Below are positions 21,594 to 25,713 of a stretch of 64,000 nt of DNA, in pieces. Position numbers and translations under genes: made by a program. Each line of letters opens with the position of its first letter. The first letter of the stretch is position 1. The notes under the pieces were generated by a model. That model saw only the letters and a list, made by a program, of their open reading frames with translations, was not told the DNA's origin and did not search any database. Origin of the DNA: Kineococcus sp. TRM81007 (lineage in GTDB: Bacteria; Actinomycetota; Actinomycetes; Actinomycetales; Kineococcaceae); NCBI RefSeq assembly GCF_022669155.1, contig NZ_JALBVB010000016.1:1-64000 (forward strand). The letters run 5' to 3'.

Positions 21594-22115
21594 TCAGGAC
21601 GGTGCGCCGAGGGGTTCCGGGCCGGCCGTGCCGGCGCCGGGGCTCAGCAGCGCGGCGAGCGCGTTCCAGCGCGCGATCTGGCAGCCGTCGGTTCGGCTGA
21701 ACTCCGCGTCCACGTCCTGCCCCGCCCACGTGCCCGTGACGGTGGCGCGCTGCGGGCCGCCGTACACCTCCGTGCACGCCGTGTCCGGCGGCACCGGGGC
21801 GAACGGTTCCGACGCCGCCGCGAGCGCCGCGCACGCGGCCGCCGGGTCCGGGTGGTTCCCGCTCGCGGTGCCGTCCGCCGCGCAGGTCAGGGTCCAGGTG
21901 CTCGTGCTCCCCGCGCCGTCGTCGACCGTCACCGTCAGGGACGTCGGCTCTGCCGGGGCGGGTGCCGTCGCCCCACCGGACGTGCTGGACGTGCTGGGCG
22001 TGCTGCTCACCGTGGGTCCTCCCGCCTGCTGCTCACCGCACGCGGCGCCGCCCGCGAGCAGCAGGGCCGCCAGGGCCACCGCGCCCGGCGCGCGTCGTCG
22101 CACCGTGCCGACCAT
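21594..22115 (-). CDS. Lipoprotein with subtilisin-inhibitor-like (SSI) domain
   Basis: A 173-residue secreted lipoprotein. The N-terminus has basic residues, a hydrophobic stretch (VALAALLLAGGAAC) and Cys26 as the probable lipidation site, then a Ser/Thr/Pro-rich spacer. The domain shows the SSI pattern of four cysteines: TLTC, then AACAAL, then DTACTEVYGGP, then RTDGCQIARW. By alignment with SSI, the reactive-site P1 position after the third Cys would be Glu, an inference. It may inhibit extracellular serine proteases at the cell surface. ATG 22115 follows GGGAGG. Confidence 0.85.
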   Translation of the reverse strand: MVGTVRRRAPGAVALAALLLAGGAACGEQQAGGPTVSSTPSTSSTSGGATAPAPAEPTSLTVTVDDGAGSTSTWTLTCAADGTASGNHPDPAAACAALAAASEPFAPVPPDTACTEVYGGPQRATVTGTWAGQDVDAEFSRTDGCQIARWNALAALLSPGAGTAGPEPLGAPS

Positions 22116-22371
22116 CGTCGCCTCCCGCTCCGCCGACCGCCCCTCGGCCGCCGCCCGTGGTGGGACGCGGGAGCACCCGCCGCGGTTCCCGCCGGGGGTG
22201 CCCCGCGGCCCGGTCCCCGGGCGTCCCCGCGGGTTCCGCGGAGCGCCACCCGACCGCCACCGGAACCGCGGCCCGCGTTCACCCGCCGTGGGCACCCGGT
22301 GGGTGCAACACGTCCGGAAAGCCCCGAGGTGCGTGTGCGCGCGCCGAGAGCCCGACGGTGGTGGTTCGCCC

Positions 22372-24780
22372 GTGGACGAGAGCGACTCGGCGAGGACGAC
22401 GATCGTGGCGGTCCTGTGCGCCACGATCTTCTTCCTGGCCCTGACGATCCTCGAAGCCGTGCCGGAGATCCCGGTCGACATCGACGCCAAGCCCTTCTTC
22501 ATCCCCGTGGCCCTCGCGGTGCTCGTGCCGCGCGGCAAGCCCGTGTTCGCGGTGGCGGTCGGCGCCATGGGCGGGGAGTTCATGCGCGACATGCTCGAGG
22601 GGTACGAGATCGACGACGCCCTCGGCGCCGTCGGCTACCTCGCGGCGTTCACCCTCGCCGGGTACGTCGCCGGCGACCGGCCCCTCAGCAGGGTCCGGCT
22701 GGTCGTGGCGACGCTGCTGGCGGCCGTCGTGCACGCCGTCGTGGAGGCGTCCTCGCTGCTGCTGTTCGACTCCGAGCTGGTGAGCATCGCCGTGTGGTCC
22801 GCGGTGGGGAACACGATCGGCGACGGCGTCCTGCTGGGGGTGCTGCCCGTGCTCGGCCTGGTGCCGGTGCTGTACGGGCGCATCGAGCGGTACCTGGGTT
22901 TCGAGCCCCGCGGCACCGACCGCTACGGCGACCGCGTCGCACCGGTGCCGCGCGCTCACCCCGCCGCCGAACGGGTCACCGCCGTGCGCGCGGCGGGCGG
23001 GCCGGCCGCCGACGGCCCGTGGGCGGTCACCGCCACCGGGCTGACCTTCCACTACCCGACCAGCGACGTGCCCGCCCTCGACGCGGTGGACCTGCGCCTC
23101 GCCGAGGGGGAGGTCGTCGGCCTGGCGGGCCCGCCGGGAGCCGGCAAGACGACCCTGGCGATGGCGCTGGCGGGCCTGCTGCCGGACGTGACCGGTGGGC
23201 GCGTCAGCGGTGAGGTGCGCGCCGAGGGGGGCGTGGGCATCGTCTTCGACGACCCCGGCGGGCAGCTGACGCAGCTGCGGGCGATCTCGGAGGTCGCCGA
23301 GCCGCTGCGCACCCGCGGCGCCCGCCCGCAGGAGGCCGAGCGCGAGGCGCGCCGGCTGCTCGAGGCCGTCGGCCTGGGGGGTGAGGACCTGACGCGCCGG
23401 TGGGTGTGGGAGCTGGCCGAGGGGCAGCAGGTCCTGCTGGCCCTCGCCGCGACCCTCGCGACCCGTCCGCGGATCCTCGTCCTGGACGCGGTGGTGGGGC
23501 ACCTCGACGGCGAGCACCGCGAGCGCCTGATGCGGGTGCTGCGCGAGGAGGCCGCCGGTGCCACCGTCGTCCTCGTCGAGCAGGACGTCGCGCTGCTGGC
23601 GGAGGCCACGCGACGGCTGGTCGTGCTCTCGGCCGGCCGGGTCGTCGCCGACGGCACGCTCAGCGACCCCCTGGTCGACGACCGGGTGCGCGAGCTGGCG
23701 GACCTGGCCGCCCCCGTGGAGCTGACGGCCGCGCGCGAGCTGGGCCTGGCGGGTTCCCCGCTGACGTCGCAGGACTTCGCCGACCTGGTCCGCGGCCACC
23801 GGCCGGCGCGCGACGGCGACGGCAGTGGCAGCGGCGACGGGAACGGGAACGGGAACGGGCGCCGCGGTGCGGACGGCAGCGGCCGCGGCGAGCCGCCGTG
23901 GGCCCACGACGCGCCCCGGGTGCGGGTGCGCGGCCTGGACTTCTCCTACCCCGACCGCTCCCCGGCCCTGCGCGGCGTCGACCTGGAGGTGCGCCCGGGG
24001 GAGGTGCACGCCGTGGTCGGCCGCACGGGCGCGGGCAAGAGCACCCTCGTGCGGGTCCTGGGCGGCCTGCTGGAACCCGTCGCCGGGTCGGTGGCCGTCG
24101 ACGACCAGGACGTCACCTCCGTGCACCCGGCGGACCTGGCCCTGCGGGTGGCCACCGTGCCGCAGGGCGCCGACCAGGCCCTGTCGCGGCGGCGCGTGCG
24201 CGACGAGATCGCGTTCTCCCTGCGCGAGCGCGGGCGCACCGAGGCCGTCGCCGAACGGGTCGAGGCCGCCCGCCGGCTGGTGGGTCTGCCCGAGGACGTC
24301 CTCGACGCCGACCCCGTCCTGCTGCCGCGGGCCCACCGGCGGCTGGTCGCGCTGGCCGCCGCGCTCGTGGTCGAGCCGTCCGTCGTGGTGCTGGACGCCC
24401 CCTTCACCGGGCTCGGTCCGGGGACCGCGGCACGGGTGCGCGCGGCGGTCGCCGAGCTGCGCGCGCGCGGCGCGGCCGTCCTGATCACCGAGCACGACGT
24501 GGAGGCGCTCGCCGAGGTCGTGGACACGGTGACGCTGCTGCACCACGGCGCCGTCGTCGTGCAGGGCCCGCTGCGCGAGGTGCTGCGCAGCGACCGCCGC
24601 GAGCTGCTGACCTCGCGGCGGCTGGACCTGCCGCGCGCCGGGGTGCTCGGCGAGGCCGTCGGGGTGCGGGCCTGCACCGTGGCCGACCTCGTCGACGCCC
24701 TGTCCGCCCCCTCCACCTCCTCGACCGTCCCGGCCGCCACCGCCGTGCCGGCCTCGACCGCACCCTCCCGGGAGGCCTGA
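22372..24780 (+). CDS. ECF-type transporter: membrane domain fused to two ATP-binding domains
   Basis: An 802-residue fusion. Residues 1-190 are a five- or six-helix membrane domain like an ECF S component. NBD1 (about 222-430) has Walker A GPPGAGKTT near 253; NBD2 (about 520-740) has GRTGAGKST near 550. A Gly/Asn/Asp/Ser-rich linker joins them. The catalytic Glu after Walker B is Ala in both (ILVLDAVVG, Ala373; VVVLDAPFTG, Ala676). The signature LSGGQ is LAEGQ in NBD1 and unrecognisable (LPRAHRR) in NBD2. NBD1 also has VFDDP for VFQNP at the Q-loop and VEQD for the switch His. The stop overlaps the ecfT start. GTG 22333 is an alternative start. Substrate unknown. Confidence 0.88.
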   Translation: MDESDSARTTIVAVLCATIFFLALTILEAVPEIPVDIDAKPFFIPVALAVLVPRGKPVFAVAVGAMGGEFMRDMLEGYEIDDALGAVGYLAAFTLAGYVAGDRPLSRVRLVVATLLAAVVHAVVEASSLLLFDSELVSIAVWSAVGNTIGDGVLLGVLPVLGLVPVLYGRIERYLGFEPRGTDRYGDRVAPVPRAHPAAERVTAVRAAGGPAADGPWAVTATGLTFHYPTSDVPALDAVDLRLAEGEVVGLAGPPGAGKTTLAMALAGLLPDVTGGRVSGEVRAEGGVGIVFDDPGGQLTQLRAISEVAEPLRTRGARPQEAEREARRLLEAVGLGGEDLTRRWVWELAEGQQVLLALAATLATRPRILVLDAVVGHLDGEHRERLMRVLREEAAGATVVLVEQDVALLAEATRRLVVLSAGRVVADGTLSDPLVDDRVRELADLAAPVELTAARELGLAGSPLTSQDFADLVRGHRPARDGDGSGSGDGNGNGNGRRGADGSGRGEPPWAHDAPRVRVRGLDFSYPDRSPALRGVDLEVRPGEVHAVVGRTGAGKSTLVRVLGGLLEPVAGSVAVDDQDVTSVHPADLALRVATVPQGADQALSRRRVRDEIAFSLRERGRTEAVAERVEAARRLVGLPEDVLDADPVLLPRAHRRLVALAAALVVEPSVVVLDAPFTGLGPGTAARVRAAVAELRARGAAVLITEHDVEALAEVVDTVTLLHHGAVVVQGPLREVLRSDRRELLTSRRLDLPRAGVLGEAVGVRACTVADLVDALSAPSTSSTVPAATAVPASTAPSREA

Positions 24781-25553
24781 TGTCCGCTCGCGTCCCCGTC
24801 CTCTACACCGGCCGCGACACCGTCGTGAACCGCCGCGACCCGCGCGTGAAGCTGCTGGTGCTGGCGCTGCTGTTCGTCTTCGTCTTCGTGGCCCCCAGCA
24901 CGCAGTGGATGCTGGTGCCCGTCGTCGCCGGGCTGGTGACCGCGCTGCTGGCGCGCACCCCCTGGCGCTGGCTGCTGGTGCTGTGGGGCATCCACGTGCC
25001 CACGTTCACCGCACTGATCGTCATCGGCGGCTGGGACTCCCTGACCGCCGGCGACCTCGGCGGCCTGGTGACCGCGGCCGGTGCGGAGGCGCGGCTGGTG
25101 CTGGCGTGGACGGGCACGATCCTCCTCAGCGTCAGCGTGTTCTCCGCGCTCGACCCCGACGACACCGCCCGGGGCCTGCGCGGTCTCGGCCTGCCGGCGG
25201 TCGTCTCGTTCGCGGTGGGCCTGTGCTACCGGCTGCTGTACACGACGCTGACCGAGGCGGTGCAGCTCACGGAGCACATGCGCCTGCGCGGGGTCCGGCT
25301 CCAGGCGCGCCGGCCGTTGCGGTTCGTGCGCGACGCGCTGCAGGTGTCCCTGCCGCTGCTGTTCGGCGTGGTGCGGCGCGGGCCGCTGCTGATGGCGACG
25401 ATGCGGCTGCGGGGTTTCGCCGGCGACCCGCAGCTGGGGCGGCCGGGCGTCGCGGACGTCGCCGTGGTGGTGGTGGCGCTGGCCCTGGTGACCGGGGCGG
25501 CGCTCGCCCGCTGGGGTCCGCTGCCGGCCACCCCGATCGCGCTGGGGGGCTGA
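24780..25553 (+). CDS. ecfT: ECF transporter transmembrane (T) component
   Basis: A 257-residue EcfT protein that couples the ATPases to the substrate-binding S component. The ATG at 24780 shares its A with the previous stop codon. The N-terminus (RRDPRVKLLVLALLFVFVF) is the family opening, with several membrane helices following. The long cytoplasmic coupling helices carry EHMRLRGVRLQARRPLRFVRD and LLMATMRLRGF, the two X-R-G coupling motifs that dock into the NBDs. The motifs are well preserved even though the partner NBDs look degenerate. Confidence 0.92.
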   Translation: MSARVPVLYTGRDTVVNRRDPRVKLLVLALLFVFVFVAPSTQWMLVPVVAGLVTALLARTPWRWLLVLWGIHVPTFTALIVIGGWDSLTAGDLGGLVTAAGAEARLVLAWTGTILLSVSVFSALDPDDTARGLRGLGLPAVVSFAVGLCYRLLYTTLTEAVQLTEHMRLRGVRLQARRPLRFVRDALQVSLPLLFGVVRRGPLLMATMRLRGFAGDPQLGRPGVADVAVVVVALALVTGAALARWGPLPATPIALGG

Positions 25554-25713
25554 CGCGAGCACCCCCGCGCGGGTACCGTGAGGAGTTTCGCCGGTCCGGG
25601 CTCCTCGGCTCGTCCCCTGAGAATCCTCCCGCGAACGGCTCCGTGATCGCAACGTTGTTGCCGTGCAACGGTTCTGGCAGGATCTCCGGGCTCCCCGGAA
25701 CCCTGGAGGAACC

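Follow-up and report, generated by a model that had tools for sequence, protein, structure and literature searches.

A two-gene operon in the window, the 64,000-nucleotide stretch of Kineococcus sp. TRM81007 DNA analysed here, appears to encode a membrane importer of the vitamin type, a lineage-specific member of a rare S/AA/T subfamily of ECF transporters whose ATPase would be asymmetric by ancestry. In this member the catalytic Glu, a feature of active ECF machinery, is present in neither NBD. The most likely reading, to which a probability of roughly one half is given, is a hydrolysis-deficient ECF motor on which constraint has relaxed, joined to an S domain that is still maintained. The claim made is one of descent from and resemblance to ECF transporters, not of a working transporter.

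The fusion gene (22372-24780, plus strand, GTG start) encodes an S domain and two NBDs in a single chain of 802 residues. Its stop overlaps the start of the EcfT gene (24780-25553, plus strand; 257 residues, CbiQ family, Pfam PF02361, E 2e-19) in TGATG. Both open reading frames bear out the first-pass annotation, which had described one 802-residue chain joining a membrane domain and two NBDs, with EcfT coupled to it. The S domain (22372..22911, residues 1-180) was delimited by an AlphaFold2 model and its structural match, and the other parts by sequence or sequence motifs, all on the plus strand: the linker fusing S to NBD1 (22912..23022; codon GC 0.90/0.74/0.92), NBD1 (23023..23718), a linker between the NBDs (23719..23916), which contains a Gly/Asn-rich stretch and in part of which the predicted model has a pLDDT below 50, and NBD2 (23917..24660). 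The window holds no Rfam matches.

The AlphaFold2 model of residues 1-180 has a mean pLDDT of 93.7 and a pTM of 0.89, and its best structural match is 4hzu chain S (Z 17.4, rmsd 2.4 over 156 residues), followed by others that include ThiT 3rlb (Z 16.7) and RibU. By this model the domain has the six-helix fold of an ECF S component. It had been proposed earlier that structure prediction of the N-terminal domain could suggest the S-component class; the fold was obtained, while Pfam and NCBIfam gave no usable class. The domain is ~47% identical to a separate S gene of Rubrobacter. The top NCBIfam matches of the NBD pair are ECF ATPases, with scores under the curated cut-offs. In structure comparison the NBD2 part resembles CbiO/EcfA (Z 28-33), and the AA part is similar both to EcfA/CbiO structures and to double-NBD chains.

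Both Walker A motifs, read directly on the plus strand, are as intact as had been reported, GPPGAGKTT in NBD1 (23128-23154) and GRTGAGKST in NBD2 (24019-24045). The other motif observations of the first-pass annotation were also confirmed. The Walker B catalytic Glu is replaced by Ala in both NBDs, with codon GCG at 23488-23490 and codon GCC at 24397-24399; the signatures are degraded, reading LAEGQ in NBD1 (23413-23427) and LPRAH in NBD2 (24322-24336), all likewise on the plus strand; and NBD1 has Asp in place of the Q-loop Gln and Gln in place of the switch His. NBD2 has kept its Q-loop Gln, switch His and Walker B Asp, and its D-loop Asp has become Gly (GLGP). The A-loops are kept. Asp-Glu is found in both NBDs of 12 of 12 sister-group operons aligned, of three haloarchaeal operons and of a host ECF module on C28, and judged by sequence comparison with these operons the double loss of Glu exceeds chance. 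Besides the one in the window, the host has two EcfT loci, at ~64900-67300 on C28 and ~39300-40600 on C33, and their ECF-type ATPases keep the Walker B Glu. Sequencing or assembly error was considered and ruled out: many further motif and family-invariant positions differ, and the codon structure of the operon is intact, with a third-position GC of 0.96-0.99.

The closest relatives are S/AA/T operons on a plasmid of Rubrobacter radiotolerans (also in genome G799) and in haloarchaea, the latter on three plasmids (Halorussus, Haladaptatus) and in one genome. They came from a plasmid search and a phylum-wide genome search, the sampled genomes being a fraction of those existing. In the AA tree, in which the window AA row was flagged for composition, the window protein and five subfamily members lie on one side of a branch with support of 100/100. 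Every relative found (L121-L124, L128, L149) encodes S and AA by separate genes, and the two are fused in the window only. No relatives closer than ~47% (S) or ~40% (AA) were found in these searches. Among 39 Rubrobacteria genomes scanned there were only one full member and, at the end of a contig, a fragment of 29 residues; 383 genomes drawn from the phylum in a second sampling gave no further members, and viral contigs scanned with the S and AA alignments gave no relatives. When genome contigs were scanned with the full protein, nothing nearer than distant ABC proteins came up, and the exact peptide patterns of that scan would miss orthologues of 50-70% identity. More distant S/AA/T operons occur in other families of the Actinomycetales, with S ~30-40% identical and both NBDs canonical. 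Separate sources for S and for AA-T were ruled out, as the AA and T trees place both in the family of S.

In NBD1 of the five subfamily relatives the catalytic Glu is replaced by Ser or Thr, the Q-loop Gln by Glu and the switch His by Asn or Thr; their NBD2 signature reads LPRG, LPQG or MPGG. Their NBD2 retains Asp-Glu, the Q-loop Gln and the switch His, the catalytic Glu of NBD2 being present in all relatives found, and their NBD1 signature is LSGGQ (LSGGE in one). In such a pair ATP site 1 consists of the NBD1 Walker A facing the NBD2 signature, and site 2 of the NBD2 Walker A facing the NBD1 signature. As read from these motifs, the subfamily has a site 1 that was degenerate from its ancestor on and a canonical site 2, which is the layout of asymmetric ABC exporters; searches limited to open-licence papers found no report of an asymmetric one-site ECF system. 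With the window protein included, the replacements in NBD1 of the subfamily are Ala, Ser or Thr at the catalytic Glu, Asp or Glu at the Q-loop Gln, and Gln, Asn or Thr at the switch His. These losses are kept across bacteria and archaea and are therefore ancient and presumably selected.

The window protein has the traits of its subfamily: its NBD1 lacks the Glu, Q-loop Gln and switch His, and its NBD2 signature is degraded. The one canonical site of the subfamily, made up of the NBD2 Glu and the NBD1 LSGGQ/E, is absent from it, with Ala and LAEGQ in these places. The NBD2 Glu-to-Ala change, the NBD2 D-loop change and the NBD1 LAEGQ set the window protein apart from all the relatives found. The suggestion that conservation of the Ala sites across genera would mark them as selected thus has a divided answer: loss of the NBD1 Glu is common to bacteria and archaea, while loss of the NBD2 Glu is seen in this species only.

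The three parts of the operon have changed at unequal rates. Branch lengths for the window and for Rubrobacter are 0.59 and 0.71 in S, 2.68 and 0.42 in AA, and 1.78 and 0.37 in T, and the long window branches may reflect, besides relaxed constraint, an older divergence or a letter composition that inflates lengths. Changes unique to the window and to Rubrobacter number 15:11 in S, 38:4 in NBD1, 29:8 in NBD2 and 47:2 in T. By these comparisons of sequence S evolves at a normal rate, and AA and T ~5-6 times faster than in Rubrobacter; relaxation and adaptive change are indistinguishable in such rate data. The earlier description of a well-kept EcfT with its coupling motifs holds for the motifs, since both Arg-Gly motifs are kept. 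It is wrong for the protein as a whole, which has accelerated like AA and has changed at 47 of the 89 residues that are invariant in Rubrobacter and four haloarchaeal EcfTs.

The genes on either side of the operon, a lipoprotein gene and a HelD-like gene, are neighbours in 9 of 10 family flanks fetched, so the operon is an insert; in the nearest congener ~100 bp lie in its place between the ends of the two flank matches. The inserted segment, at the site where the flanking genes adjoin in congeners, is ~3.4 kb (22199..25598). In 11 other genomes of the family Kineococcaceae the S domain has no match at E 0.001 or better. The codon-position GC of the operon matches that of the host and neighbouring genes, and either its source was therefore also rich in GC or its composition has since been ameliorated. 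The divergent lipoprotein gene (21594-22115, minus strand), which adjoins the HelD-like gene in congeners, looks by eye like a subtilisin inhibitor.

A clean insert that is absent from the 11 other family genomes might also be a mobile ECF operon that brought no benefit and is now decaying, its motor drifting to a pseudogene and its S domain not yet broken. This account, which we regard as rather unlikely, is favoured by the acceleration of AA and T and by the disappearance of catalytic and family-invariant residues. The long open frame had been taken as an argument against a pseudogene, an argument that did not survive: at 77% GC the opposite strand of the same interval has an open stretch of 878 codons, so that frame length has little weight against decay. 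More telling against it are two genes that run through 3.2 kb with no frameshift or stop, the preserved TGATG coupling, a codon-position GC like that of neighbouring genes, the retention of Walker A, A-loops and coupling motifs, and the normal rate of S even though it is part of the same chain.

For the preferred reading, a hydrolysis-deficient motor under relaxed constraint, the following course is proposed. Before the lineages of Rubrobacter and the haloarchaea parted, site 1 would have lost its signature along with the catalytic Glu, Q-loop Gln and switch His, leaving a canonical site 2. In the window lineage S would have been fused to AA, and as AA and T came under weaker constraint the remaining site 2 would have lost both its Glu and a good signature. 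The resulting motor is predicted to hold ATP at its Walker A motifs with poor or no hydrolysis, and the S domain would work mainly without an ATP-driven cycle, as a ligand-binding protein or a slowly equilibrating carrier. In ECF modules of L. delbrueckii, replacing either catalytic Glu by Gln abolished both ATPase activity and the transport of folate, and in the double-mutant structure both sites are occupied by ATP (PMC10368641). The window protein should, by this analogy, bind ATP with little or no hydrolysis, and its motifs indicate that the complex probably binds ATP without normal hydrolysis. Walker B Ala variants of other ABC proteins can retain residual activity (ABCB1; review PMC7756269). 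The S domain is tethered, and according to a structural study of S-fold receptors, which suggests that toppling is restricted by soluble domains at the C terminus (PMC11109136), its toppling would be limited.

A still-active ATP importer, in which other residues position the attacking water or slow hydrolysis at site 2 suffices for a rare micronutrient, is very unlikely. NBD2 speaks for it in having an intact Walker A, Walker B Asp, Q-loop Gln and switch His, for with these in place site 2 lacks the Glu and has a weakened partner signature; the relatives, by their motifs, must run on site 2 alone. That partner signature (LAEGQ) and the D-loop Asp have changed as well, however, and in the ECF module studied either single Glu-to-Gln replacement was enough to abolish ATPase activity and transport (PMC10368641).

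The S proteins of this family also occur outside ECF modules, since 6 of 6 solitary haloarchaeal S relatives (L150-L155) adjoin a gene for a membrane histidine kinase, and neither AA nor EcfT was found within the 16 kb fetched; the one kinase scanned has a HisKA_4TM region and HATPase_c. This arrangement favours a sensor, transceptor-like, in which S binds a ligand, the non-hydrolysing NBDs report the ATP or ligand state to EcfT or a partner, and loss of hydrolysis was selected. S-component folds do serve as the membrane domain of sensor kinases (PMC11109136), and in Pfam the S domain of the window weakly matches 7TM-7TMR_HD, at an E of 0.005 that falls short of the cut-off. We nevertheless consider a sensor quite improbable, as the window operon has no fused or adjacent signalling gene, and the faster change across the whole of AA and T resembles relaxation more than the refinement of a new function. 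Nor do we know of any sensory role for EcfT. It is unlikely, too, that the operon represents a natural ECF system of asymmetric-subfamily descent, with both sites non-hydrolysing and S tethered, that was selected as an ATP- and ligand-gated sensor or carrier.

Other neighbours of the haloarchaeal S-AA-T clusters deserve mention. A PhoU-domain gene lies within ~8 kb of 4 of 4 such clusters (L121, L122, L124, L149), with pst genes as well at one, and a link to phosphate is possible for these clusters; the annotation of the stretch surrounding the Rubrobacter cluster has no phoU. Three haloarchaeal plasmid clusters have a gene for a membrane protein of 148-149 residues after EcfT (L121 11106-11552, L122 11223-11669, L124 11134-11580), without a Pfam match in the one scanned, and a weak relative of it lies on the other strand at L149 (9550-10119).

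In the ECF system studied in vitro both catalytic Glu residues were needed for hydrolysis and transport (PMC10368641). That a subfamily spanning two domains of life has inherited one degenerate site suggests that a single engine can suffice, and it allows the order of the two ATP events to be tested. A possible sequel is seen in the window protein, where the second site is lost and the substrate-binding domain kept; the case is relevant to whether an S component can function when no ATP is hydrolysed.

With ECF transporters of the dedicated group I type the window operon has in common the S fold, EcfA-like NBDs, a CbiQ-family EcfT and the order S-AA-T; it differs in the fusion of S to both A domains and in the absence of both catalytic Glu residues. 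Like asymmetric ABC proteins of the TM287/288, TAP, CFTR and MRP1 type, the subfamily relatives have one degenerate and one canonical composite site, and the degenerate site lacks Glu, Gln, His and signature in the same layout. In contrast to these exporters and channels, the subfamily is an ECF-type importer module, and the window protein has, by its motifs, lost the second site also. The 2EQ mutant ECF module of L. delbrueckii (PDB 8bms, PMC10368641) resembles it in having both Walker B Glu residues replaced and Walker A kept, but the replacement there is an engineered Gln, whereas the window protein has natural Ala, degraded signatures and a fused S. Finally, in 5TMR sensor kinases (PMC11109136) as in the window protein an S fold is tethered by its C terminus to cytosolic domains; in the window protein these cytosolic domains are a pair of ABC ATPases, and the operon has an EcfT gene and no kinase.
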